Shown: positions 40,133-62,247 of the stretch, in pieces | Layout of the letters: each line of letters opens with the position of its first letter | Position numbering within the stretch: the first letter of the stretch is position 1 | From: Candidatus Thiodiazotropha endolucinida | GTDB lineage: Bacteria > Pseudomonadota > Gammaproteobacteria > Chromatiales > Chromatiaceae | DNA length: 64,000 nt | Reading direction: 5' to 3' | NCBI RefSeq assembly: GCF_001715975.1 | Contig: NZ_MARB01000016.1 | Location: 40,849 to 104,848, forward strand | Notes under the pieces: model-generated | Database searches by the model: none | Told to the model about the DNA's origin: nothing | Seen by the model: the letters and a program-made list of their open reading frames with translations, nothing else | Program-made: the position numbers and the translations under genes

Positions 40133-41035
40133 GTGAAAATACATCCCATCAATCACCATGGATTGAACTGGATCATTGGACTGATTATGTTGGCATCGCT
40201 CTCCGCCGTTGCCGACAATCATAATATCATGCGTGTCGGCGGTAGCGCTGAGTCGATATATGATTCCCGGATCACAGACGTGGAGATCCTCTTCACCGTG
40301 CTTTTCAATGAGATGTTCAAGGATCATAATGAAGAGTTCAGGATCAAGATCTATGACACCGATCAGGCACTAACCAGGGAACTTGCCGCCGGTAATCTTG
40401 ATGCAGTATTCATGGATACTGTGCTCTATCTCGACAATTTTGAACACCTTCATCCTGAGATCGCATTTGCCGTTCAGCACGGTCAATCCATTAAACCGAA
40501 ATATATTCTGCTTGTAAGGCGCAACAGCGGAATTGACTCTTTGCATGAGTTGCAAAATAAAAAAATCATCATTCCCTCGGGACATGCTGTGGGCAAGCGC
40601 TTTCTAGATGTCGAACTGATGCATGCTGGTCTACCTGTTTCGAATGATCATTTTTCCGAAATACGGCAGACCAAGGAGTCGAATACAGCTATCATTAAAC
40701 TCTTTTTCAACCAGGTAGATGCGGCGCTGGTCACCGATTTTTCCTATGAAGTCGCCAGCGAGCTGAATCTACAAATTCCCCAAAGTTTGGAGATAATCGA
40801 AACATCTCCGCCATTTATTCACATGGTTATTTCTGTACGAAAGGATTTCCCCAGGCATCGTATCGATAAAATATTTCCCTATCTTGAAAATCTCGAAGAG
40901 ATTCCCCGCCTGCAATATTTAAGAAAGAGTTTCCGGTTTCAGGGACTGCACAGGATCAGTACGGACGAGGTATACGATGTACGCCAGTTAAGTGACAAGT
41001 ATGTCCGCCTGAGAAGCGAGAGAGAAATCCCATGA
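40133..41035 (+). CDS. PhnD-like periplasmic binding protein, copy 1 of the operon
   Basis: The 300-residue protein starts at GTG 40133 and has a signal peptide (WIIGLIMLASLSAVADN). Motifs LDAVFMDTVLYLDNFEHL, KYILLVRRNSGIDSLHELQNKKIIIPSGHAVGKRFLDVELMHAGLP and FFNQVDAALVTDFSYEVASELNLQIPQ align with the two copies further along in this operon. The fold is that of PF12974 solute-binding proteins. It begins 20 bases after the TolC-like gene and overlaps the next gene by 4 bases, so it is likely the sensor partner of that GGDEF-EAL protein. Ligand unknown. Confidence 0.8.
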   Translation: MKIHPINHHGLNWIIGLIMLASLSAVADNHNIMRVGGSAESIYDSRITDVEILFTVLFNEMFKDHNEEFRIKIYDTDQALTRELAAGNLDAVFMDTVLYLDNFEHLHPEIAFAVQHGQSIKPKYILLVRRNSGIDSLHELQNKKIIIPSGHAVGKRFLDVELMHAGLPVSNDHFSEIRQTKESNTAIIKLFFNQVDAALVTDFSYEVASELNLQIPQSLEIIETSPPFIHMVISVRKDFPRHRIDKIFPYLENLEEIPRLQYLRKSFRFQGLHRISTDEVYDVRQLSDKYVRLRSEREIP

Positions 41036-43461
41036 AGCAAACCACAATATTCAAACACCTCTTCAAGAGAGTCGCATTGATTCTGTTGAGTGTCAATTTG
41101 CTTTTCTCCATCCTTCTATTACCAATATACAAAGACAAGCTGGTGCGGATGATCGCCATCCAGGGAGACACATTCGCCAACTCGACGATAGCCGCATGCA
41201 GTGAAGCGCTATATACGGAAGACTTCAGCTTTATCATCTCTTATGTCAACAAGGTACTGCAACAAACACCGGAAATATCTTTTGTGACATTCACCTCGGT
41301 CAAAGGTCGGACGATCAAGCTCACAAACGACGGCTGGAATGTTGAAAGCGTGGAAAAGAGCCTGGATTTTTCACAATTCAAGAATTCATCGCCCTATAAG
41401 ATAGAACATGTGAAGAGTGGTAATAATGCTTTTGTCTTTACCAAACCGATCAATATCAGCGGCCTCGAATGGGGAATCTTCTCACTTGGTTTGGCTGATA
41501 CGGAATACGAGGCCTTGTTGTTCAGCTATTTCCAGAATGTCCTGATATTCAGTTTTTTGCTTGTCTTCATATCCCTATTACTGTTGCATGGCAGCTCTCT
41601 GAAGCTAGGGCAACAACTGGCCAACCTACGTCATACTGCCAACAGACTGGCGCATGGCGAACTTACTGCTCGCGCGCCCACCAATGCGATCGGTGAAGTC
41701 AGCGTACTTGCCAATACGCTTAACGGCATGGCACAAAGTCTGGACAGGAACACCAGGGATTTACGCCGCCTCGCACGCCTTGTTGAAGACACCAATGACG
41801 CCATTGCCATATTCGATCAGAACGACAAGATAATATTCGTCAATGCCGCATTGAAAAATATCATCAACCAGAATGATGACTACTTCAATGGCATGTCACT
41901 CTTCACTTTTCTCAATCATTTGAAAGTAGGCCGAAACAAGCAACTCGAAATCGCAAATGAATTCTCCAGTGTAGACCAACATGACTGGTCGACCGATATC
42001 ACTATCAGAACACTCAAACACAATCTGACCCACATGACCATGCGCATCGAGCGCTTTGATATCGATGAAATCGATAGCGGAGGCTACTTTGTCATTCTCT
42101 CCGACATAACCCGGCGTAAACAACTCGAACACGAACTGGAAGTCCTTGCCTATATCGACAAATTGACGAAACTACCCAACCGCCGCTACTTCATGGATCG
42201 TCTCACCGAGGCAGTCGAGGAATCTGAAGCTTTCGATAGCGGCCTAGCCGTCTTTTTTCTCGACCTGGACAACTTTAAGATCATCAATGATTCTCTCGGC
42301 CATGAGGTTGGCGACGTTGTATTGAGCGAAGCCGGTTGGCGCATCCAGGAGGCTCTTCGCAGTGATGATATCGTATGCCGCCTGGGCGGTGACGAATTCA
42401 CTGCCATCATTAAGGGTGTGAATAATAGAAAATCCATCAGCCAGGTTGCTGCAGCCATCTTGAAGCGCTTTCAATTACCGATCTATAGCAATGATCGTGA
42501 ATTACGCGTCAGCGCCAGTATTGGCGTAGTGATTTATCCAGATGACGGGCTCAACACAAAAGAGTTGATCAAGAATGCCGACACAGCCATGTATGCGGCT
42601 AAAAAAAGCGGTAAGAATGCGTACCGGTTCTTTTCCGAGGAGATGCATCATGACATTCGTGACTATCTCGACATAGAAGGAGCGTTGAGACAAGCTATTG
42701 CTTCAACCGGGCTCTATCTGGTCTACCAGCCTTTCATCAATTCCGATGACGGTGAGATCCATCACTGTGAAGCTCTGCTACGCTGGAAACAACCTGAACG
42801 CGGTTTGATACCACCGGGTAAATTCATCCCGATTGCCGAACAGTCAGGCTTGATCGGCGAAATCGGCCAATGGGTTTTCGCTAAAGTCTGTCAACAAATC
42901 AAGGCATGGGATTTTGATATAAATGTTTCCATCAATGTATCGGGCAGTGAGTTGCTGGACAATCACTTTGCGGAACGTTTACATAACACTCTCATCGAAT
43001 ATGACATCTCTCCTCACAATATTCAGCTTGAGTTCACGGAACATGTCCTGGTCAGTAAGGAGGGCAAGAATCTTCCTATACTGAATCAATTGAAAAGAAT
43101 GGGTTTCAATCTGGCGGTTGACGATTTCGGTACCGGGTTTTCATCACTCAGTTATCTTACCGAACTGCCCATCGATGTCATAAAAATCGATAAATCGTTT
43201 ATCAGCAGGATACCCCACGATCGCAAAACTGTCGCGGTATCGAAATCCATCATCTCTCTGGCACACAATCTGGAGATTCTAACCATAGGTGAAGGTGTTG
43301 AAAACCAGGCCCAGGTTGAATGGCTGAGAGCTCATGATTGCAAGTTGATTCAGGGCTACTATTTCTACAAACCGATGAGCGCCAGTGAACTTGAGGCACT
43401 GATCTGTAAAACCAATGTCACACTGTTCGATCCTCAACGAAAAAAACGGAAGACCACATGA
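41032..43461 (+). CDS. Membrane PAS-GGDEF-EAL protein
   Basis: The 809-residue protein has a membrane helix at about 12-32, a periplasmic loop of about 130 residues, a second helix near 163-187, HAMP (about 190-240), a PAS domain, GGDEF and EAL. The motif GGDEF is intact, with an RSDD inhibitory site upstream; EALLRW and DDFGTGFSSLSYL in the EAL domain are intact. Its start overlaps the PhnD-like gene (ATGA), giving coupled translation. By analogy with binding protein plus GGDEF-EAL pairs such as NspS-MbaA, the periplasmic protein may control this enzyme. Confidence 0.92.
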   Translation: MKQTTIFKHLFKRVALILLSVNLLFSILLLPIYKDKLVRMIAIQGDTFANSTIAACSEALYTEDFSFIISYVNKVLQQTPEISFVTFTSVKGRTIKLTNDGWNVESVEKSLDFSQFKNSSPYKIEHVKSGNNAFVFTKPINISGLEWGIFSLGLADTEYEALLFSYFQNVLIFSFLLVFISLLLLHGSSLKLGQQLANLRHTANRLAHGELTARAPTNAIGEVSVLANTLNGMAQSLDRNTRDLRRLARLVEDTNDAIAIFDQNDKIIFVNAALKNIINQNDDYFNGMSLFTFLNHLKVGRNKQLEIANEFSSVDQHDWSTDITIRTLKHNLTHMTMRIERFDIDEIDSGGYFVILSDITRRKQLEHELEVLAYIDKLTKLPNRRYFMDRLTEAVEESEAFDSGLAVFFLDLDNFKIINDSLGHEVGDVVLSEAGWRIQEALRSDDIVCRLGGDEFTAIIKGVNNRKSISQVAAAILKRFQLPIYSNDRELRVSASIGVVIYPDDGLNTKELIKNADTAMYAAKKSGKNAYRFFSEEMHHDIRDYLDIEGALRQAIASTGLYLVYQPFINSDDGEIHHCEALLRWKQPERGLIPPGKFIPIAEQSGLIGEIGQWVFAKVCQQIKAWDFDINVSINVSGSELLDNHFAERLHNTLIEYDISPHNIQLEFTEHVLVSKEGKNLPILNQLKRMGFNLAVDDFGTGFSSLSYLTELPIDVIKIDKSFISRIPHDRKTVAVSKSIISLAHNLEILTIGEGVENQAQVEWLRAHDCKLIQGYYFYKPMSASELEALICKTNVTLFDPQRKKRKTT

Positions 43462-43530
43462 TCAGCTAATTCAGCTCCAAGCCAATGTACACAACCAATT
43501 GAAAATTAAAAAACTGCATTTCAGCTGACC

Positions 43531-44451
43531 ATGAAATACCGAGTAGCCTATTCCTACCTACTAAGTTGTTGTTTACTATTGACAACGATACTGACTCATT
43601 CTGCCCCTCTCCCTGATCGCTATACCGATAATCCCAGTATCGGCTATTTCGGCCGCATGTCTAAAATACTGTTTGACGCCAACGTAACGGACACTACGAT
43701 TGCCACTGATATGATCATCAGAAAGGTCTTCGGTATGATGGATATGAAATCCGAGATCAAGATTTACGAGGATAGAAATGCACTGATTCATGATTTATCG
43801 GAAAACCGTGTTGACGCCGTCTTCACCAACACTATCGACCACTTTGCATTGGATCATCTTATCAACTCAGACTATATTTATACACTCATCTACGGATCGA
43901 GCGCCCATCAAAAAGCATATCTGTTGACCCGTAAAAAGGACCGTATCAAAAATCTTGTGGATTTGCGCGGAAAGAAAATTTCCATACCGAATGGCCATGA
44001 TCTCGGCAGGCTTTTTCTGGATGTCGAATTGAGAAAACAGGGACTTCCAGGTCTTGACAATTATTTTTCCAGCATCAAACAGACTATAGATACCAACACA
44101 GCAGTAGTCGATCTCTTTTTTGGGAAATCCGACTGTGCACTGGTCTCGGACGTCGCTTTTGAACTGGCAGCTGAACTGAACAAACAGATACCTCAGGATC
44201 TGAAGGTACTCATCGCGTCCGACTACATGATTCCACAGATTATTGCCATTAATAAAAATGTCCCACATTCCATATTCAAAAAAGTTGACGAATTTCTCGT
44301 CAAGGCTCATGAAAATCCACGGATCAAGCACCTACTCTCCCTGTTTCGCGCCAAGAAATTCGTCAAACTTGAACAGAACCAGTTAATTGAAAGCCGTAGT
44401 TTATTGGATGAACATGAGGTACTTTTGAAGCAAGCTGGGACCACTAAATAG
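43531..44451 (+). CDS. PhnD-like periplasmic binding protein, copy 2
   Basis: This 306-residue protein has a signal peptide (YSYLLSCCLLLTTILTHSAPL). The mature region contains IGYFGRMSKILFDANVTDTTIATDMIIRKVFG, VDAVFTNTIDHFALDH, KAYLLTRKKDRIKNLVDLRGKKISIPNGHDLGRLFLDVELRKQGLP and FFGKSDCALVSDVAFELAAELNKQIPQ. It shares most of these segments with copies 1 and 3 at clearly different identity, pointing to old duplication. It begins about 70 bases after the GGDEF-EAL gene and its stop overlaps the GTG start of copy 3. Confidence 0.8.
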   Translation: MKYRVAYSYLLSCCLLLTTILTHSAPLPDRYTDNPSIGYFGRMSKILFDANVTDTTIATDMIIRKVFGMMDMKSEIKIYEDRNALIHDLSENRVDAVFTNTIDHFALDHLINSDYIYTLIYGSSAHQKAYLLTRKKDRIKNLVDLRGKKISIPNGHDLGRLFLDVELRKQGLPGLDNYFSSIKQTIDTNTAVVDLFFGKSDCALVSDVAFELAAELNKQIPQDLKVLIASDYMIPQIIAINKNVPHSIFKKVDEFLVKAHENPRIKHLLSLFRAKKFVKLEQNQLIESRSLLDEHEVLLKQAGTTK

Positions 44452-45383
44452 TGATCACATCGTCAGTTAATCGTCCGATCATCAATATATTACAGCAAGG
44501 TTTTGTAATTGGCTTGAACCTGGCACTGCTCTCCGGTCATGAGAGCTGTCTCGCCGATCCATACGATCGGGATACCGCCTATATCGGCATCATGTCTCGT
44601 TTGATGTTTTCGACCGACCTCAACGATACCCGAATTGCAACCGAGTTGGTTTTCACCGAGTTCATGAAAAACATAGGTAAAAAGGGCGAGTTTTTCGACT
44701 TCGATTCACCCAATGATGTGATTAAAGCGATGCAACAGCATAGACTTGACGCGGTCCTGACCGACACTCTGGACTACCTGAAAATCGACCACATGGTTAA
44801 TCAAAACCACCGTTACTCAGTCGTTTTTGGACCGCGTAAATTACAGAAAATAGTTCTTCTGACCCGGCGTTCAGACAAGATCAGCAGCCTGGAGCAACTG
44901 AGACAAAAGCGGTTGACCCACCCTTCCGGCATTAACCTCGGACTATTGTTTCTCGATGTGGCACTGATGAAAGAAAGGCTTCCCATCGCCAAGCGGTTTT
45001 TCTCCACATCCACACCGGTCGGCGATGTCAACACTGCAATCATTGACCTGTTTTTCAACAAAGCCGATGCTGCCCTGGTCACTGATTTTTCCTTTGATAC
45101 CGCCAGTGAATTAAATACGCAGATTGCCAATCATCTGGAGGTCCTGGTCGCCTCGGATCCCATCGTCCCAATGGTCATCGGCATCAATAAATTTGTTCCC
45201 TCGGAATTTACCGAAAAAGTCGATGAGATGGCCGCCCGATTACACGAACTACCTAAAACTCTCCATCTGCTTTCCCTTTTCAAAGGGAAAGGTATCGTCA
45301 AAATATCCAATCAGGATTTACGCTCGGCCCGTGTGCTCAAAGAGGAGTATGAGAAACTGATAAATTCCGATCAAACAGAATGA
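44451..45383 (+). CDS. PhnD-like periplasmic binding protein, copy 3
   Basis: This 310-residue protein starts with GTG sharing a base with the stop of copy 2. It has an N-terminal hydrophobic stretch (INILQQGFVIGLNLALLSGHESCLADP) as signal peptide. Motifs IGIMSRLMFSTDLNDTRIATELVF, LDAVLTDTLDYLKIDHM, KIVLLTRRSDKISSLEQLRQKRLTHPSGINLGLLFLDVALMKERLP and FFNKADAALVTDFSFDTASELNTQIAN parallel copies 1 and 2. Substitutions in the ligand pocket region (IPNGHD versus HPSGIN versus IPSGHA) suggest different ligands. Confidence 0.78.
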   Translation: MITSSVNRPIINILQQGFVIGLNLALLSGHESCLADPYDRDTAYIGIMSRLMFSTDLNDTRIATELVFTEFMKNIGKKGEFFDFDSPNDVIKAMQQHRLDAVLTDTLDYLKIDHMVNQNHRYSVVFGPRKLQKIVLLTRRSDKISSLEQLRQKRLTHPSGINLGLLFLDVALMKERLPIAKRFFSTSTPVGDVNTAIIDLFFNKADAALVTDFSFDTASELNTQIANHLEVLVASDPIVPMVIGINKFVPSEFTEKVDEMAARLHELPKTLHLLSLFKGKGIVKISNQDLRSARVLKEEYEKLINSDQTE

Positions 45384-50816: not shown

Positions 50817-51232
50817 TGTGCACCGCCGTCCACTACACCCTCAACGGCCAGGAGGTACGCACCAGGTTCCCCAATGCCAAGGCCTGCCTGCCGGTAAAGA
50901 ACAGGCACGGCGATGCCGACCTGCTACCCTGGGGACGGCGCACCCACCAGCTGGGCAAACTGCCATTGGGGGGCTGGGCCAGACTCGATGCCATCTATGG
51001 CGGGCGTTGGGACCGCTGGCGGCCGATTCCGGTAAAACTGCTCATCAGCCAGTTCATGGAGGTGGATATGGAGGGCGCCAGCCACTGGTTCGACGTCACT
51101 CCGGGCAAATGGATCCAGGGCCTGGTGGCCCACTGGGAGCACGAAAGACGCGTCTATGTGGTCACCATCACCCCGGAGATGGAAGACGCCGCCTATGAGC
51201 GTTGGCCGCGCATACTCAGCCACAGTCGCTGA
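50816..51232 (+). CDS. Conserved small protein with N-terminal Cys2, possible distant SRAP/YedK-like partner
   Basis: The 138-residue protein begins MCTAVHYTLNGQEVRTRFPNAKACLPVKN and continues with LLPWGRRTHQLGKLPLGGWARLDAIYGGRWDRW, PVKLLISQFMEVD and RVYVVTITPEMEDAAYERWPRIL. SOS-associated proteins of the SRAP (YedK/HMCES) family also expose Cys2 after Met removal and crosslink to abasic DNA. The MC start, PWG and a late PRIL-type motif suggest a distant link, but overall similarity is weak by eye. Co-translation with the polymerase gene (TGATG) supports a DNA damage role. Confidence 0.65.
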   Translation: MCTAVHYTLNGQEVRTRFPNAKACLPVKNRHGDADLLPWGRRTHQLGKLPLGGWARLDAIYGGRWDRWRPIPVKLLISQFMEVDMEGASHWFDVTPGKWIQGLVAHWEHERRVYVVTITPEMEDAAYERWPRILSHSR

Positions 51233-51522
51233 TCAAGGAAAAATACAAGCCGCTAATGAACGCCAATCGTTATGCCAACGGAGCCTGCGTGAGACGCCTC
51301 CCTTAACCGGACTCGACTAAGCAACACTGTATTGCACGGGTACAGATCATCTGTGTTAGCCGCCTGCTGGCGTGCATTCCGTAAACCATACTGCTTAGGC
51401 CTCTGAAAGATCCAACCCGGTCGACCACGGATTAGAGATTTTACTTTCCTTTACAATATACCAACTCATATTACATCGAATATCCCTATAATTTACTGGG
51501 ATTTCCTGCTGTTTGGGTTGAT
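51233..51522. other. Intergenic region before the toroid-GGDEF gene
   Basis: About 290 bases without a gene. The last 80 bases before 51523 are AT-rich (ATATACCAACTCATATTAC) and probably contain the promoter. A short GCCTGCGTGAGACGCCTC dyad lies near 51282. Nothing else stands out. Confidence 0.35.
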
Positions 51523-53361
51523 ATGAAAATAAATATGGTTCTGATGTTGCTTGCAGGGATTCTGGTTGTTATGGCGATTTCCTTTCAATGGAAAATCAGC
51601 AGCGATGCTGCGTACGCTTCTGAACTGGAAGCGCAGTATCAGCAAGCGATGGATGATTACAATGAAAATAACATCTACTACTCACCTCAGGCCACGACTC
51701 AATGGATCGTCCAACGGCAAAATCCAGCAGGTTACTTTGTCACCAATCCGGACATGCTGTTCGAACCTTCACAGCTCAATAACAGCACACTGCGAGGCAC
51801 ACGCTATGCTATCAGCACCCTGGGAGATCTGAACGGGCTGCACACCATAAATCGACATGCTGTCATTGATTTCATCCTGGGTCTGTACGAAACGGAGATC
51901 AAGCAGACTAGGGTGGAAACCTATACCCGATACCAACGCGGTACCCGGTATGATGGATTTAAAACCCTGCCCGGCCAGGACGTCGGGGTGAGGCCAACCA
52001 TGGATGCCCTCATGATACTTAATAGACTCGACCTTCTGGACGACCCGAGACTGAATCTGGATGGCATCTGGAACTTTATCGTTGCCCATCAAAACGAGGA
52101 CGGAGGATTCTGGGATGAACATTATCCAAAGCTCCTAAAAGATTCCAGTATGAAGTGCACCTCATTTGCAGCCCGGGCCCTCGCTATACTGAGTCAACAT
52201 ACCGGCCGACCGATACCTGAGAAACTGAGTAAGGGTGTCATTCGATTCGTTCAGAATAATCATGATATTGTTACCGGCGGTTACAGCAGTCAACCAGGGG
52301 AGAATTCTGACGATAGCTACAATGCGTTTCGCGCATTCAAATCCATCTGGGATACCACCAATGGCAGTGATGAAATCAAACGTCAGGCAGTTAGCGATTC
52401 CATCGACATGAATGCGCTTATTGACTATTTTAATTATAATCACTATTTAGTCGAATTGGGGGGCTATTCCCGCCATAGTAACCTTGAAAATAAAAAAGCC
52501 TCGATCAAAGCCACCCACCTGACCGTGTGGCTTTTGCATAACATGCAACTTCTTGACTACGTCGACAAGCAGAGCATAAGCAAGTATGTGATGTCGATGA
52601 AAACCCCCGATGGTCAATATGGTGGAGACATTTATACGACTTATTCAGCAATTGGCCTGCTACAGAAAATGGGTATTCCCTCGGCACCAAAACCTGAACC
52701 GGAAAAACCGGAAAAGCCGGCGATAATTCCTAGTATCGTACCTACAACGTTCTTCATAACAGCACTGATTACTTTACACCTCGGCTACCAAACTAAAAAA
52801 TTTGAGTTCAAAACCATCAACAAAGCCCTTATCATTCAGGCGAGCACGGATGCTCTTACCGGCATCTATAATCGGCAGTGTTTCGAGCAAAAACTGAAGC
52901 ATGAGATTGAAAAATCCTTAAGGTACAAAAGACCTCTGACGACAATCATGTTTGATATCGACAACTTCAAACGGATCAATGACAAGCACGGTCACATTGC
53001 TGGAGACACTGTACTCAAAGAAATTTCTGTACTGATAAAAGATGCCCTCAGGGATTCAGATATTTTTGCCCGCTGGGGTGGTGAGGAATTCATTATACTT
53101 TCTACTGAAACAGATATTGATGGTGGGCGACAACTTGCAAAAAAAATGCTCGATCTGATAAATGAAAAAGAGTTCACCGTGGTGCAGAAAATATCTGCAA
53201 GCTTTGGTGTAACTGAATTCTGTGCTGAAGATAGTATGGAAAGCCTGGTGAAGCGGGTCGATAACGCCATGTTGGAAGCCAAGCGACAGGGCAAAAACAG
53301 AATCATCAGCGTGGATGCAAAACTTAACTGTCAGCCGGCCTGTCTGACAAGCGGATTATGA
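51523..53361 (+). CDS. Diguanylate cyclase with a periplasmic prenyltransferase/terpene cyclase-like alpha-toroid domain
   Basis: The 612-residue protein has an N-terminal anchor (4-20), then residues 50-385 with repeated helix-turn units: WIVQRQNPAGYF (61-72), FIVAHQNEDGGFWD (185-198), FVQNNHDIVTGGY (242-254), YLVELGGYSR (308-317) and YVMSMKTPDGQYGG (355-368). These Q-x-D/N-G-G-F/Y turns, each followed by an alanine-rich helix (for example KCTSFAARALAIL), are QW-type repeats of the prenyltransferase/squalene cyclase toroid. A Pro-Glu-Lys linker (387-400), a membrane helix (404-421) and a GGDEF domain follow. GGEEF (519-523) and RDSD inhibitory site (510-513) are intact, so it should make c-di-GMP. 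Confidence 0.85.
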   Translation: MKINMVLMLLAGILVVMAISFQWKISSDAAYASELEAQYQQAMDDYNENNIYYSPQATTQWIVQRQNPAGYFVTNPDMLFEPSQLNNSTLRGTRYAISTLGDLNGLHTINRHAVIDFILGLYETEIKQTRVETYTRYQRGTRYDGFKTLPGQDVGVRPTMDALMILNRLDLLDDPRLNLDGIWNFIVAHQNEDGGFWDEHYPKLLKDSSMKCTSFAARALAILSQHTGRPIPEKLSKGVIRFVQNNHDIVTGGYSSQPGENSDDSYNAFRAFKSIWDTTNGSDEIKRQAVSDSIDMNALIDYFNYNHYLVELGGYSRHSNLENKKASIKATHLTVWLLHNMQLLDYVDKQSISKYVMSMKTPDGQYGGDIYTTYSAIGLLQKMGIPSAPKPEPEKPEKPAIIPSIVPTTFFITALITLHLGYQTKKFEFKTINKALIIQASTDALTGIYNRQCFEQKLKHEIEKSLRYKRPLTTIMFDIDNFKRINDKHGHIAGDTVLKEISVLIKDALRDSDIFARWGGEEFIILSTETDIDGGRQLAKKMLDLINEKEFTVVQKISASFGVTEFCAEDSMESLVKRVDNAMLEAKRQGKNRIISVDAKLNCQPACLTSGL

Positions 53362-53476
53362 TTGCTCCCTAAATCGCTGGAACCTCGCCACTCGATCGGT
53401 TACATTCCCAAATTATCGAAGCTGTAGAAAAAGCCAAAATTTTACGTAAGTAATGATAAAATAATGGAAGCAGTCA

Positions 53477-54904
53477 CTATTCCACAAGTGCCTTCATCTC
53501 ATCCAGGATGAGCTTGGCTCGCTCAGGGTGTTGTTCCATCTCCCTGCTCTTGGCGGTAATCCACTGCGCCTCTTCCTGCAGCAACCGGTTCAGGTTTTCT
53601 TCATAGACAACTACCGGATACTCCCGTTTACGCAGTTCGACCACATAGTCGTTGAGACGCTCCTTCAGCAACAGCCGACGGGTCTGTTGCCGGGTATCCG
53701 GATCATTGATATCGGTATATTTCGAAACCCTTCGATCAGTCACCCGAATAATATGCCAGCCGGCGGGGGTCTCTACAGGGCCTCCCAACTCGCCGATTTC
53801 AAGGGTGAAGGCCAACTCATCCAGGGCGGGAAAGCCACTGCCCTCCTCGACCCAGCCGAAGTCACCCAGGGTTTGCTTTGCCCTTGGATCGATGGAGTGG
53901 TTGAGCGCCGCCTGATAGATGGTCAGTTCACCCTTCCCCAGTTTTTCCATAATATCCAGCGCTGTCTTCTCATCCTTCAACACCACCATCTGCAGTTTGC
54001 GGTGCTCATTGAAGGTAATGCGCCCTTGATGTTCAGTAAAATAGTCCCGTACCTCCTGCTCCGTCGGCTGCATAGCTTGCGCCAGCGCACTACGATGCTG
54101 ATTGACCAGGCGTGTCACACTGAATTCGGCCAGGGCGGACTGAAAACCCGGATCCCGATCCAGCCCCGCCTCTCGCCCCTTTTTCGCCAATAGGTAGTTA
54201 TCTATCAGTCCATTAAGGGTTTTCAGGCGTCTGTTGATATCGATCGAGTTGTTCAAGGTAGTGAGATATTTCTTACTCTCACCCCATGTCATTACGTTAC
54301 CGTCATACTCGGCGATCACCTGCTCATCGCTGCGTATACCGTCATCTTCAATCTCAAGATGCTTGGTGTGAATCATTACCTTAGTCCCGGCATGCAGATG
54401 TTTGCGCAATCCCTGTTTGCGTACCAGGTATTTTGCTTTTTTGACCTTTGCCTCGACCAGGGGACGCATCTTGTCATCCAGCTCGGTATCCTTGGCAAAG
54501 TGTTTCTTCACATATTCGGCAATATCTACTTCGCTGACAGCGGAATCCGCTTTCAGGTAGTGTCTGCGATAGAGTCCCGCAAGCATGCCATCGGCATACT
54601 CCTGCAACTCCCGTTTGAAATTCGGATCCTCCAGCTTTCCCTTGCCGACGGCATCCAGATAGAGCAGGTTGACACTGATCGCCTTGTCCAGCAGTGTCAG
54701 GATCACAGTGCGTCGTTCGGGTGTTCCCAATGCCGGTGTTGACAGGCCCACCACGGCGGTACTGTTCAGTTGTGGGAAGGTGATGATCCGATCGTCAACC
54801 CGGGCCAGGATATTGCCATCGGATAGTACAGGCTCTGCTGTAGGTTCTCCCCATGCGGAAGCGGTCAAGAAACAACCGGCCGCCAGTGTTACAAGATTTC
54901 TCAT
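53477..54904 (-). CDS. Periplasmic parvulin-type peptidyl-prolyl isomerase (SurA/PpiC-like)
   Basis: The 475-residue protein has a signal peptide (LVTLAAGCFLTASAWGEP) and SurA-like helical chaperone regions with a DDRIITFPQL start motif. A parvulin domain near residues 300-395 contains HSIDPRAKQTLGDFGWVEEGSGFPALDELAFTLEIGELGGPVETPAGWHIIRV, an intact isomerase signature. A second partial helical region and a long polar C-terminus follow. It is encoded 216 bases downstream of the nine-heme cytochrome on the same strand. A foldase beside a large periplasmic cytochrome could help its maturation; this is inference from proximity. Confidence 0.88.
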   Translation of the reverse strand: MRNLVTLAAGCFLTASAWGEPTAEPVLSDGNILARVDDRIITFPQLNSTAVVGLSTPALGTPERRTVILTLLDKAISVNLLYLDAVGKGKLEDPNFKRELQEYADGMLAGLYRRHYLKADSAVSEVDIAEYVKKHFAKDTELDDKMRPLVEAKVKKAKYLVRKQGLRKHLHAGTKVMIHTKHLEIEDDGIRSDEQVIAEYDGNVMTWGESKKYLTTLNNSIDINRRLKTLNGLIDNYLLAKKGREAGLDRDPGFQSALAEFSVTRLVNQHRSALAQAMQPTEQEVRDYFTEHQGRITFNEHRKLQMVVLKDEKTALDIMEKLGKGELTIYQAALNHSIDPRAKQTLGDFGWVEEGSGFPALDELAFTLEIGELGGPVETPAGWHIIRVTDRRVSKYTDINDPDTRQQTRRLLLKERLNDYVVELRKREYPVVVYEENLNRLLQEEAQWITAKSREMEQHPERAKLILDEMKALVE

Positions 54905-55120: not shown

Positions 55121-58100
55121 TTACCAGCCACAGGTTGAGCCGGTGCGATCCAGGGATACATGTTCCCATACGCTTTCCGACACCCGGCCTTCAGCGAGAT
55201 GGAGTTTCCACTCCCGACCGTCTTCGCCGTTACAGGCCACTTCCTGCCATTCGTCATCATGGCAACCCTGACAGACGGTAGTGCGCGGATCTGTGGAGCC
55301 AAATACAGAACCTGAGATCAGTATCTCCACCTGATCCATGGTCTTTCGCGATACCCGCCCCTTCATGGCATGCTCCAGCCACTCATCTTCCGATACACTG
55401 ACTTCATCGTTCTCGTTTTCATGACAGCTGATACAGAAGTCGTCTCGAGGATCGTGATTATCGGTAAAAGTATGTGCCCAACTCACTGCCGCGTCGAAAT
55501 CCCCGGCGATCGGCGTACCGTCAAAGCGCAGACCTTCACCCTCGTCACAATAATCTCCATCCTCACCCGGCGCACAGACGCGTGTGGGTATCTGGGCATC
55601 AGGGTTATCGGCCAGGGTCTCGTACATATGGCATGAACCGCACTTCAACGGACCATGGCTGTCATCGCTGTTGAGATAGGCCGCCTGGGCATAGGTGGTT
55701 GCATCCACGCCATCGACACCAGGACCCTGTTCCAGATGGGGTGCCACCGGATAGAGGCCGTGGATCGACTCATGACACCCCTGACAGGTGATGTCCCGGT
55801 GACCGCGCGAGTAACGCATCAACCCCGCCTTGCATGGATAGTTGAAGGGCGGATGGTCATTACCCGGCTGATGGCCGCTCGGCTCCACATAGGGTGCGGT
55901 ATGGCAGTCGGCGCAATGAGGTTCGCCGGCGGCGAGCCAGTGGTCGCGTCCGTCAGTTGCCGCCGAGAAGGGTACCGCGGCCGCCATCGATCCACTCAGA
56001 GTCTGCTGGGCTGCAGCCACGCAATCGTCGGTGGTACAGAAATCGAGGATACTGACACTGAAGTCGCCGTCGCCATCGAAGCTGCCGCAGATCTGGAAGT
56101 CCGCCTCGCCGTTGCCGTCACAGTCGGGGCCTGGCGCTGCGGCACCCGTGGTACATGCGGTGGCGTCTCCCGCCACCTCGATGGTGGCCAGCTTGGCATC
56201 GAGCGCCGGGTCGGTACTGCCGCCTAAATAGGCACAGAGCCCAGGATCGCGGCGCCAGATGGCCATGGTCTCTTCCGAGGTGCGAATCGCTCCATCGGCC
56301 GGGAAGACATTGGGATCTCTTGGATCGAGCCAGTCCAAAGCCTGTTGCGTATCGACACCCACTGCGGCGGCAATTTCATCCAATGACGCCAGGGCGCGTA
56401 TATTGCTCGCGCCTGGGCCGGGTATGCCATCGATCAGGCTCTCCATGTTCTCTCGTTTCCAGATCTCCTGGCTCAACTGATTGTGACAGTTGGTGCACCA
56501 GATACCCCGGTCGTCGCGATCGCTGCCCGCAAGTCCGGCCTGATTGCGAGACACATTGTCGCGCAACCATTCACCGATGGCGGTCAGATGCTCGGGCGTA
56601 CCGGCGCCGTCGATATCCTTGAACGGATTGGAGTGTACATCACGACCGACGAAACAACCGCCGGCACCTAGACGGTTATCCGTATCGGCATAGAAGTTGT
56701 CGCCTGTCTCGGTGATGGGATAGCCCGCCATATCGCCATTGGAACGATGGGCTGGATGACATCCCTGACAGCCGCCGAAACGGCCGAGACTGTCGCTGAA
56801 TGCTATGGGGCCACCCTCGCCGACACCGCGATGGGTCTGATGAATCGCTTCGGACATAGGCAGAATCACCTTATCGTTACCCTCATCATCGATAAAGGAG
56901 GCCGACTTGACCTGGGCGATGACGTTATCCGCATGGCAACGTTGACACAGCACGGTGGTATTGCCGATTCGGGTGCTTTGCGCGAACACGGGCCGGTTGT
57001 TTTGCGCCGACAGATCGGCAGCCAAGGCATCGCACTCCGCCGGAGTGCCGCAGGCCGGATAGTTGACCAGGAAATCCGTGCCATGGCTCATGTCATGCAG
57101 GCCGAGAATACTGATGGCCGCACTCTTGAGTCGCGGATACCAATCCGAGTCGCCAGGACCTATACCATAATAGCTCATCCAGAAGTTGTACTCCTGCTGA
57201 ACCTTGGCCCAGATTTCATCCCCGCTCTTATGCGGGGAATTGGTGGTATCCACCTCTGAATGGCAGCGCTCGCAGTTGGGGATATCGATGGGGGCGGTAC
57301 CGAAGCCCTCCACCGGCACACCATTTTGCATCACAGGTTCACCCATACCGCCCGGCTGATCGGGATCGTAATGGCGCAGCTTGGCTCTCATTGCGACAAA
57401 GGGGCGTACAGAGTCCTCGAACATCGCACCCGGATCGGCAAAGAAGTTGATGGAATCCTCGAACGGAGTCAACGGGAGTCCCAAGGCCTCCCAGATCCTG
57501 GGTGAGGTCAGGGTAATCGGCAGGTTCTCCAACACCTTCATCTGAGTGTAGACAACCGTGCCATGCTCACCCGAGAAAGTCAGCACGTTGCCATTGGATG
57601 CACCGCCGCAGTCATTCGCTACGGCAGGATTGCTTGGTACGCCATCGGGATGAGAAACAGGCCCCATGGGATGGAGGCCGGCGCCGCAATCCGCGGGATA
57701 CTCGATATGGCCGGATACGCCGAGTCGAATCTTATCGCTCTCCGCAGAAGAATTGTTGGGATTGGCCCCTTCCAGGTCGGCATAGATATAGAGATGATTC
57801 CAGACTGCATTCCAGTAGTTGTCGGTCGGATCGTCGAAATCGCCATCACCCACCATAGCGCCGCTGACACCGTTCCAGGTCGGATTGCCATTACCGGAGG
57901 TCTTGAGCGAACCGTCCGGATTGACCACCGCCGAATCGGCAAGGGTATTCCACATCAGCAGTGAATTGCCTTCTGTCGCACTGATCAGCGTTGAGGTCTG
58001 AGGCACAACCTGCGGGCGGGTTTCACGGGGTTGGGCATCATGCCAGTATTCGAGTACATACTTTTGGAAATCCCCATTCGCATCGAGATCGGGGTCACGC

Positions 58101-58579
58101 AAAACAGTCTGGCGTCCCAAAGCATCCAGACCTACCGAGGGATCCCCCTCCAGAAGGCGCGCAAAGGCCGTCTGCCCTTCGTCACTCTGCTGCGTCTTCA
58201 CAACCTGGGCAAGGATAGAGTTGTAGGGAGGAAGCACACAACAGTAGGCGAACTCAAACCCGGTACAATGCATACCGAGCTCATAGTTCATCATGATGTT
58301 GAAACTGTTCTTTGGGCTCAGCGCCAGGCCGTTACCGCCGTCGCCACCGTCATCTTCGGAATGCTTCTCTTCCTCTTCCTCTTCCTCTTCCTCTTCCTCT
58401 TCCTCTTCCTTCCTGCGCTCATCCTCTTCACTACTGTGTTTGTCTTCCTCGTGATTTTCCTCTCCTTCATCTCTGCTCGCCCAGCTATTGTCCATGGCGA
58501 AAATCAGCATGAAGATAAACGAAATCGCGAATGTTACGAAGCGATGAGATTTATTGCGTCTTGAATGATTGCACTTCAT
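55121..58579 (-). CDS. Large nine-CxxCH multiheme cytochrome c with poly-glutamate tract
   Basis: From the ATG at 58579 (behind a GGAGG site) the product is about 1152 residues. A signal peptide (VTFAISFIFMLIFAMDNSWAS) is followed by an acidic segment with 14 consecutive glutamates, then a long domain with nine CxxCH heme motifs: CERCH, CQRCH, CQGCH, CTNCH, CADCH, CQGCH, CGSCH, CISCH and CQGCH. A CTGFEFAYCC stretch near residue 105 is an extra cysteine cluster. It is probably an exported electron-transfer protein, perhaps extracellular; substrate unknown. A parvulin gene is downstream and a thioredoxin-like gene upstream. Confidence 0.88.
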   Translation of the reverse strand: MKCNHSRRNKSHRFVTFAISFIFMLIFAMDNSWASRDEGEENHEEDKHSSEEDERRKEEEEEEEEEEEEEEKHSEDDGGDGGNGLALSPKNSFNIMMNYELGMHCTGFEFAYCCVLPPYNSILAQVVKTQQSDEGQTAFARLLEGDPSVGLDALGRQTVLRDPDLDANGDFQKYVLEYWHDAQPRETRPQVVPQTSTLISATEGNSLLMWNTLADSAVVNPDGSLKTSGNGNPTWNGVSGAMVGDGDFDDPTDNYWNAVWNHLYIYADLEGANPNNSSAESDKIRLGVSGHIEYPADCGAGLHPMGPVSHPDGVPSNPAVANDCGGASNGNVLTFSGEHGTVVYTQMKVLENLPITLTSPRIWEALGLPLTPFEDSINFFADPGAMFEDSVRPFVAMRAKLRHYDPDQPGGMGEPVMQNGVPVEGFGTAPIDIPNCERCHSEVDTTNSPHKSGDEIWAKVQQEYNFWMSYYGIGPGDSDWYPRLKSAAISILGLHDMSHGTDFLVNYPACGTPAECDALAADLSAQNNRPVFAQSTRIGNTTVLCQRCHADNVIAQVKSASFIDDEGNDKVILPMSEAIHQTHRGVGEGGPIAFSDSLGRFGGCQGCHPAHRSNGDMAGYPITETGDNFYADTDNRLGAGGCFVGRDVHSNPFKDIDGAGTPEHLTAIGEWLRDNVSRNQAGLAGSDRDDRGIWCTNCHNQLSQEIWKRENMESLIDGIPGPGASNIRALASLDEIAAAVGVDTQQALDWLDPRDPNVFPADGAIRTSEETMAIWRRDPGLCAYLGGSTDPALDAKLATIEVAGDATACTTGAAAPGPDCDGNGEADFQICGSFDGDGDFSVSILDFCTTDDCVAAAQQTLSGSMAAAVPFSAATDGRDHWLAAGEPHCADCHTAPYVEPSGHQPGNDHPPFNYPCKAGLMRYSRGHRDITCQGCHESIHGLYPVAPHLEQGPGVDGVDATTYAQAAYLNSDDSHGPLKCGSCHMYETLADNPDAQIPTRVCAPGEDGDYCDEGEGLRFDGTPIAGDFDAAVSWAHTFTDNHDPRDDFCISCHENENDEVSVSEDEWLEHAMKGRVSRKTMDQVEILISGSVFGSTDPRTTVCQGCHDDEWQEVACNGEDGREWKLHLAEGRVSESVWEHVSLDRTGSTCGW
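58367..58408. repeat. Seven tandem hexamers coding for 14 glutamates
   Basis: Read on the minus strand, GAAGAG is repeated seven times without interruption, encoding Glu58-Glu71 of the multiheme cytochrome. A six-base unit keeps the frame when copies are gained or lost, so the tract may vary in length. Confidence 0.95.
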
Positions 58580-58585
58580 AACCAA

Positions 58586-59488: not shown

Positions 59489-59865
59489 GGTGTTTTTTTA
59501 CTCAGTCAGTATTAATTGTTCACCCGCCTGATGCAGAGTATTACGGAATATCATTCCCGCAGTTGACTTCAAATAATACTTAAAAGTTAGTCTCTAGCTA
59601 AATGATAAAAAAGTAGATTTCCAAATTCACTCTATTTCCGCATGAGAGATCGGAAGGGTCGAAATGTAACTAAAGTTTTACAAATCGAAGACGATATCTC
59701 TTGCAACCATGGAGTATATGGTTACAGCAAAGCAATACAATAAGCTTATTTGCTGTAATGAATCGTCCACAGGCGGCTTGTGGGCAAGGTTATACGGCGC
59801 ATACGAATTATAAAATACCAGCGCCAGGATTTGGGATATGGATCATCCATATCAGGGAAACGATC
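59489..59865. other. Divergent intergenic region before the chemoreceptor
   Basis: About 380 bases between the leftward TlpA-like gene and the rightward chemoreceptor. An open frame continues upstream of the chosen chemoreceptor start to an ATG at 59701, but its translation ([21 protein letters not shown]) has no chemoreceptor pattern. No repeat or flagellar-type promoter was recognized with confidence. Confidence 0.35.
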
Positions 59866-62247
59866 ATGTCAGTTTTTCATAATATATCGATTCGCACAAA
59901 GCAGTGGTTCGGTTTCGGACTCATTCTCTGTGTGCTTGCAACCTCTTCCATTATCACACTCATCAGTCTGGGTAATGTTGAACAAAGCGTGAACCAGGTG
60001 GTCCGCGAGAGTCAGCCGCGACTAATCCTGACGAAAGACCTCGCTAAAAGCCTGAAACAATCTACAGAATCTTTAGCCTTTTATCTTCTTACGAAGGATG
60101 AGTCCCAGCTACAGGACTTCTCAAGTCAAAGGGACCAAACGAAATATATACTTCAATCATTGATAACCAAGAGCATAGAGGCGGAAGATACCACTTCGTC
60201 CCAACTACTCAAGCAGCTGGACGATAAACTGAAGCAGTATGAACAGACAGCTGAGGCGTTACTCAATCAGACTGCCACGCATGAAGGTAACTTCCCTGGT
60301 ATCGCCTATGCCAATATGCACATAAACCCTATCAGCCGGGAACAGATGCAACTGACATCTCAAATGATTCTTTCCGAAATGGAAGAATACGCGGACGAGG
60401 AAAGGAAACAGATCCTGCATCATCTTACTGAGTTGCGGTATGCCTGGAGCAATATCATGAACGGTATCCGCGGTTATCTCGCTTTTCGCAGTGATTCAAA
60501 CATTAACGACTTGAACCTTTACCTGGACAGGACAAAAAAACTGGTCCGGATAATCAGTGCAAAGAGTGATCAACTGACATTGGATCAAGCTGATTCCATC
60601 GAGCAATTTACGGATAACATGGTACGTTTCGATGAGCACTTCAAGAGGCTTCTTGAGATACACGGGAGTAATCAGTGGCGTAGTGATGCATGGCTTGTAC
60701 GCAGCCAGATCACACCACTATTACTGATAACGGATCAACATCTCGAGCAGTTGGTTGCTCATCATGAATCGACTATTTCACACACCAGCCAACGCCTGAT
60801 CGAGGATGCCAGTTCAACGACAACACTTGTAATCAGTCTATTGCTGTTTGGTCTTATGATTGGATTATCGATAAGTTGGCTGACCACGCGTCTTATTTAC
60901 AATCCGATCCTGGAGGCAGTCAAGACCATGCAAGATATCGCCAATGGCGATGGCGATCTGATGAAACGATTGAAAAAGCGGGGTAATGATGAGCTTGGAC
61001 TGCTTGCAGAAAGCTTTAACCAATTCGTTGACAAGATCTGCAAACTGATACAACAGACTGCGCAATCAACTGAGTCGGTAATCAATGCTGTTGCGCAAAC
61101 ATCAGATAATACCAGTCAGATCAGTCGCCGAATCCAGCAGCAGGAAAATGAAACTGACCAGGTTGCTACGGCTATGACCCAAATGACAGCCTGTGTAGCC
61201 AACATAGCACAAAATGCAACTACCGCCGAAGAAGCCACCAAGGCAGCTACTGCCGAAGCACATACAGGATGCAAAGTAATCAAGCAGACAGCAGATGCCG
61301 TGCAGGCGTTGGCGGATGAAGTGGAACTCGCCGAAAAATCGATTCTTGGTGTGGAACAGGAGAGCGCACGTATCGGTTCGGTCCTGGATGTCATAAAAAG
61401 TATTGCCGAACAGACCAACCTACTCGCCCTTAACGCCGCCATTGAGGCCGCAAGAGCGGGAGAGCAAGGGCGTGGTTTTGCTGTCGTAGCCGATGAGGTA
61501 CGTGGGCTTGCCAATCGCACGCATCAGTCGACAGGTGAAATCGAGTCTATGATACAGGCACTGCAGAACGGCACACAACAGGCGGTATCCGTGATGGCTT
61601 CCGGCAGGGAGAAAGTGGACAGCAGAGTTCTGCAGGCGACGGAGGCACTTCATTCGCTCAGTGAGATAAATAGGGCTATCGAGACAATCAACGAAATGAA
61701 CACTCAGATCGCCACTGCGGCAGAGGAGCAGTGCTCGGTGGTTGAAGAGATCAACAAGAACATGATCAATATCAGCGAAAACGGCAAGCAGACCTCGCAG
61801 CGGGCAAAAAATACCTCCGATACCGCCAATGACCTGGGGACATTGGCCTCCGATCTGCAAAGGGTTGTCCAGCAGTTTAAATTTTCAGGCGATAGTGGGT
61901 TTGATTTCAGCCCTGCAAAATCAGCCCACCTGGCATGGAAAACAAGAGTACGTTCCTTTCTCGATGGCAAGCAATCCCTCTCCCATGAAGAAGCAGTCTC
62001 GCATCATGATTGCGCCCTCGGCAAATGGTACTACTCAGAAGCGCTTAATCGATACGGCGATGTTGCTGAAATACATGCGATAGAACAACCCCATCAGCAG
62101 TTACATTCACTGATAAGGGAAATTATCAAGCATATGGAAAGTGGGGATACTGACAGAGCGGAGGACCTCTATAATGAAATCGAGCCTCTGTCAGGTGAAA
62201 TCATAGGCCTATTGAATAGAGTCGAACAAAAAATAGCAGCCGGTTGA
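59866..62247 (+). CDS. Methyl-accepting chemotaxis protein with C-terminal CZB domain
   Basis: From the ATG at 59866 (after AGGGA) the product has 793 residues: a membrane helix (about 16-38), a long helical periplasmic domain of about 290 residues, a second membrane helix, HAMP ([41 protein letters not shown]) and a signalling region. The conserved hairpin [38 protein letters not shown] is present. The last 110 residues form a chemoreceptor zinc-binding domain with [27 protein letters not shown], and [18 protein letters not shown] domains bind zinc through three His and one Cys and have been linked to sensing zinc or hypochlorite. No che genes are adjacent. Confidence 0.92.

Follow-up and report, generated by a model that had tools for sequence, protein, structure and literature searches.

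What can a prenyltransferase-type toroid do in front of a diguanylate cyclase? The question is raised by the window, a stretch of 64,000 nucleotides of Candidatus Thiodiazotropha endolucinida (contig NZ_MARB01000016.1), in which one gene encodes a 612-amino-acid (aa) protein with such a toroid in its N-terminal part and a GGDEF domain in its C-terminal part. Our favored answer, to which we give a probability of roughly 0.6, is that the protein is a transmembrane diguanylate cyclase gated by a single periplasmic toroid of the prenyltransferase type, which is catalytically dead and serves as a receptor with the ligand in its cavity. The output appears to be that of an ordinary cyclase, and the receptor fold appears unusual. 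To our knowledge, only a minority of the extracytoplasmic inputs of diguanylate cyclases have been worked out, and these involve few fold classes. If the reading is true, the prenyltransferase-type toroid would be a receptor fold that is new and encloses a cavity. What each cyclase responds to matters in a genome such as this one, which has 74 GGDEF matches in 4.49 Mb (some share one frame, so these are not 74 genes).

Domain layout and the toroid fold

The C-terminal part of the protein matches PF00990 (GGDEF) with 143.5 bits against a Pfam cut-off of 23.8. NCBIfam listed 22 families, all C-terminal, of which only the general GGDEF model TIGR00254 scored over its cut-off. The GGEEF motif, called intact in the initial annotation and found at the residues given there (Table 1), is present in seven of eight alignment rows, and the eighth row ends at a contig edge. 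The RxxD motif, which we take to be the inhibitory (I-) site of GGDEF domains, is kept in all seven rows whose C-terminus is intact, namely those of the window and six relatives. Judged from its sequence, the protein is a predicted membrane enzyme for cyclic di-GMP (c-di-GMP) with an apparently intact GGDEF domain.

The N-terminal part matches PF00432 (Prenyltrans) in four stretches (E 2.2e-14, 54 bits against a Pfam cut-off of 26.5). The match is more than chance, because each of the nine toroids of alignment A4 matches this family individually at E 0.01 or better. No Pfam family besides PF00990 and PF00432 was reported for the protein at E up to 1. This includes SQHop_cyclase_C (PF13243), which was proposed for the domain search together with PF00432 and was not reported in the genome at E 0.001 either. 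With these matches and the hydrophobic stretches of the protein, the proposal of a prenyltransferase- or terpene-cyclase-type toroid joined by a membrane helix to GGDEF is supported. The predicted topology is a transmembrane helix, a periplasmic toroid, a stalk, a second transmembrane helix and a cytoplasmic GGDEF domain. The extent of about 340 residues assigned earlier to the periplasm agrees with that of the toroid; their periplasmic location is a topology prediction.

A weak structure model of the toroid protein shows outer and inner helices, six of each. Protein prenyltransferase beta subunits match it best in structure, in line with the comparison suggested initially, and in Foldseek the cyclase MstE ranks first (E 9.7e-3). 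The initial annotation had also described repeated Q-x-D/N-G-G-F/Y turns and alanine-rich helices. Six turns were found, one G-x-[YF]-like turn per helix pair (at residues 70, 145, 194, 252, 313 and 364), but the strict pattern Q..[DNG]G[GS][WFY] occurs once in the window protein (190-196, by eye), as it does once per locus in seven family loci, and the other five turns are degenerate relative to this strict QW-type pattern. Alanine accounts for 5.3% of the window toroid (5.3-12% across eight members), and the description as alanine-rich was not upheld.

Catalytic residues of the related enzymes were also sought. DxDD was not found in any of the eight toroids tested (the window, its near-copy L001 and six others), and the L059 frame is without DxDD[AT]. 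The search was able to detect the motif, because, of the 27 PF00432 loci inspected outside the family, 19 showed DxDD[AT]; only the longest frame of each locus was counted, and at some loci (e.g. L071) another frame is the one matched by PF00432. The zinc ligands of protein prenyltransferase beta subunits are Asp, Cys and His. No Cys is invariant in the toroid over eight rows. C212 in the stretch KCTSFA, which is similar to the farnesyltransferase motif CYSF, was considered as part of a zinc site and dropped, since it is Ala in two members (L060 and L061). The expected catalytic residues being absent, as the initial annotation had asked to be checked, the toroid is probably non-enzymatic and likely a sensor.

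Conservation of the inner helices and the rival readings

Conservation was counted over eight rows (the window, L007, L008, L009, L058, L059, L060 and L061). L001, L003 and L004 were excluded as near-copies of the window, and L059 ends at a contig edge. Over residues 47-400, 115 of 354 positions are invariant; conservation of this degree would allow structural studies and ligand screens to begin right away. With helix limits taken from the weak structure model, invariant positions number 45 of 100 in the inner helices, 13 of 86 in the outer helices (inner versus outer, p 1.4e-5) and 54 of 156 in the toroid loops, where the stretches FEPSQ (80-84) and DEHYP (198-202) are invariant. The inner-helix invariants include 5 Arg, 3 Lys, 1 His, 2 Asp and seven aromatics (Y95, F215, Y266, F269, W336, Y371 and Y374). 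The placement of charged and aliphatic invariants on opposite helix faces is a tendency only (1639 of 20000 permutations). Identities are 45-78% between the toroids of the eight distinct members and 44-72% between the GGDEF domains of the seven that have one, and at this level toroid and cyclase are conserved to the same degree. The nine basic residues among the inner-helix invariants point to a cavity site whose ligand is polar or anionic and not purely hydrophobic.

From the layout and the conservation together, we infer cavity binding, the ligand class and dimer switching. The ligand would enter the central cavity and touch residues conserved in the six inner helices; since many of these are basic, it would more likely be polar or anionic than purely hydrophobic. 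Once bound, it would alter the toroid or its dimer contacts, and the change would be relayed via the Pro-rich stalk, the second transmembrane helix and a short helix, so that the two GGDEF domains are brought together or apart. Feedback by c-di-GMP would act through the RxxD site.

The alternative that survives best, which we nevertheless hold to be unlikely, is that a periplasmic protein docks onto the toroid and thereby switches the cyclase, with no small ligand involved. A periplasmic partner controls the cyclase in YfiN/YfiR, and complement thioester-domain toroids, which are likewise among the structural matches of the model, work via protein contacts. It also counts for docking that the small-molecule site is a candidate only. 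However, the invariants concentrate in the inner and not in the outer helices, and no partner gene common to all lineages was seen, with several contigs ending near the cyclase gene.

A cavity receptor with a different ligand, namely a hydrophobic one such as the hopanoid, quinone or lipid proposed initially, appears improbable, and quinone and lipid share this estimate with the hopanoid. Relatives of the fold bind isoprenoids or triterpenes, and the seven aromatic invariants of the inner helices agree with such a ligand; the basic residues among the same invariants speak against it. Squalene-hopene cyclase (PF13243) was found in none of 22 genomes of the genus, and the same search was positive in 2 of 14 named control genomes. 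A hopanoid made by the cell itself is unlikely because of this absence, and the hopanoid cue was rejected. There may be hopanoid makers among the carriers of the family, given that PF00432 is matched a second time in the carrier G083, by a frame of 694 aa.

We give little credence to a toroid that is still an enzyme of another kind, with a glycan or an isoprenoid diphosphate, for example, as its substrate and with the cyclase sensing catalysis or substrate: glycoside hydrolases occur among (alpha/alpha)6 folds, and the two invariant loop stretches together with invariant Asp, Glu and His could build an active site, but DxDD is absent from the eight toroids tested, there is no invariant Cys to maintain the zinc site of prenyltransferases, and the toroid matches no enzyme family other than PF00432.

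If the toroid is instead a dead receptor with a cavity, its origin invites a speculation that we regard as a long shot. A toroid of the prenyltransferase fold might have turned once from enzyme to receptor, before the gammaproteobacterial families parted; its basic cavity, formerly for an isoprenoid diphosphate, would now report an anionic envelope ligand (e.g. undecaprenyl diphosphate or an acidic glycan), and c-di-GMP output would follow envelope building.

Spread of the fusion and genomic surroundings

Relatives were sought with the toroid as the query, and the window genome was counted wherever it was searched. Matches were obtained in 3 of 22 genomes of the genus, 7 of 210 of the order, 4 of 369 of the class sample, 2 of 3 of the order of G083 and 1 of 3 of the order of G152, and none in the plasmids or viral contigs searched. 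The phylum sample gave 2 of 398, which are the window and a non-member toroid protein with ankyrin-like repeats; the latter is also the single match in 48 genomes of the class of G476. At L011:1456-3276, in a genome of the same phylum, a toroid-like stretch is joined to apparent ankyrin repeats (by eye).

The family has ten carrier genomes, with L001 and the G004 contig counted as one genome. Three are species of the window's genus (G000, which is the window's genome, G004 and G005), four belong to a second genus, g513, of its family (G906, G908, G912 and G915), and G083, G321 and G152 represent two other families of the class. The toroid-GGEEF fusion is present in nine of the ten family proteins, and the tenth (G906) reaches a contig end. 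G321 has an additional 28-position match in a 34-aa frame. The nearest named record, with 93% identity over the toroid, is a metagenome-assembled genome of a gammaproteobacterial symbiont of the clam Ctena orbiculata.

In the window's genome, PF00432 is matched by this frame only. A class-wide search for PF00432 gave 47 match rows in 43 of 369 genomes. Loci were inspected for 30 rows; the remaining 17, one of which is the window's own, were without loci. Three of the inspected loci belong to the family (L062, L065 and L088), and none of the 27 others has a GGDEF domain by blast over frames of at least 150 aa, with flanks of about 1.5 kb. Because of these 27 loci, the pair of toroid and GGDEF appears confined to this family among the genomes sampled. 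No toroid-GGDEF protein was described in the literature searched, which comprised open-licence papers. In passages of PMC5735121, the two terms occur apart. Entries for the pairing may exist elsewhere, in other literature or in domain-architecture databases. Within these bounds, neither of the two outcomes that would have refuted the initial annotation came about: the weak model shows paired outer and inner helices, and the pairing is rare among the genomes sampled and was not found in the papers searched.

A tree was built from eight family GGDEF domains and 30 others, all from the window's genome (those of its 74 matches for which loci were available), and the family domains form one group with a support of 0.964. 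Pairwise identities of toroid and GGDEF correlate at 0.91 over 21 pairs (means 0.56 and 0.55). The fusion is probably one old event.

In the three carriers of the genus, the gene is flanked on one side by an open reading frame (ORF) of 139 aa (138 aa in two of them) and on the other by a PpiC-type rotamase. Of the 22 genomes of the genus, 11 have a close match to this rotamase, and eight of these are without the cyclase. In these eight, the rotamase is followed by PF09826 beta-propeller proteins in G016 and G020 (one with two stretches), by a MASE3-PAS-GAF-HD_5 protein in G018, by methyltransferase and acetyltransferase genes in G003, and by ORFs without a Pfam match or outside the Pfam scan in G007 and G008; in G006 and G012 the contig ends near the rotamase. 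In the stretch of G008 that was analyzed, the 139-aa ORF was not found. Gene decay at the empty site was rejected, since no remnant of the cyclase gene was found in the eight sister loci by tblastn or blastn. The two protein matches of significance hit other GGDEF stretches, in L055 and, at the edge of the locus, in L052. All remaining matches are at E 0.96 or higher, and at the DNA level one match of 45 bases falls in the upstream flank. The spot (window 51232-53477) is variable in the genus, and the presence of the cyclase differs between species.

Neighbors in other lineages are mostly unrelated (AlaDh/PNT, CbbQ/MoaE/DUF533, redoxin and esterase). In g513, genes for a CbbQ-type AAA protein, MoaE and DUF533 follow the cyclase in three of four loci (families from a Pfam run on L095 only), and the fourth contig stops inside the gene. 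A redoxin common to the window and L018 (G083) is 38-40% identical; it adjoins the cyclase in L018 and lies 5.6 kb off in the window. Conversely, the PpiC-type rotamase, 29% identical between the two, adjoins the cyclase in the window and lies about 8 kb off in L018. Loci of the other lineages show neither gene, and both links were taken as chance. An operon partner was rejected since, as far as the contigs reach (several end near the gene), the neighbors differ by lineage, and the gene looks like a stand-alone regulator. Promoter-like sites numbered 5 (4.0 in shuffles) and terminator-like sites 3 (1.8 in shuffles).

Three further loci of the window were recorded. At 40133-45383, a HAMP-GGDEF-EAL protein (41032-43461) is encoded amid three periplasmic phosphonate-binding-type proteins (PF12974; 40133-41035, 43531-44451 and 44451-45383), which may be its sensors. 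A 1154-aa multihaem-type protein at 55121-58585 has a long Glu-rich run near its N-terminus and matches Cytochrome_C7 with 34.5 bits against a cut-off of 24.8; an MtrC/MtrF-like match is below the cut-off (Pfam). A chemoreceptor at 59701-62247 has 4HB, HAMP, MCP signal and zinc-binding CZB domains.

Table 1. Features of the toroid-GGDEF gene, in window coordinates.
Feature	Position	Strand	Basis
Whole gene, 612 aa (transmembrane helix, predicted periplasmic alpha/alpha toroid, Pro-rich stalk, transmembrane helix, GGDEF)	51523..53361	+	ORF and Pfam
N-terminal membrane helix (signal anchor), about residues 5-22	51535..51588	+	Hydrophobicity read from sequence; helix 2-49 in weak full-length model
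Predicted periplasmic toroid, about residues 47-388	51661..52686	+	PF00432, weak model, turns, conservation
Pro-rich stalk, about residues 389-404	52687..52734	+	Sequence; P389, P393 and P396 invariant in 8 rows
Second membrane helix, about residues 405-422	52735..52788	+	Hydrophobicity read from sequence; helix 408-420 in weak model
GGDEF domain, residues 440-593	52840..53301	+	PF00990, E 6.5e-42
RxxD (I-) site RDSD, residues 510-513	53050..53061	+	Motif in sequence and alignment rows
GGEEF active-site motif, residues 519-523	53077..53091	+	Sequence and alignment rows

Comparison with known systems

Protein prenyltransferase beta subunits (farnesyl- and geranylgeranyl-transferases) are linked to the window protein by the PF00432 match, the best structural matches and a weak profile match. 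In contrast to them, the window protein is fused to membrane helices and GGDEF and is predicted to be periplasmic in its toroid, its family is without an invariant Cys for zinc, and identity is 9-14% in the first 20 structural rows. Class II terpene cyclases, such as squalene-hopene cyclase, share the toroid with QW-like turns, and one cyclase, MstE, heads the Foldseek rows. These enzymes are two-domain proteins of about 650 aa, whereas the window protein has one toroid and no DxDD. The same order of transmembrane helix, periplasmic domain, transmembrane helix and GGDEF, with GGEEF and the I-site, is seen in transmembrane diguanylate cyclases whose periplasmic sensor is of the Cache, CHASE or a similar type. 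Unlike the sensor cyclases of the Cache, CHASE, MASE and HAMP types, the window protein has no Pfam sensor family (E up to 1) in its sensor part, which matches PF00432 only.
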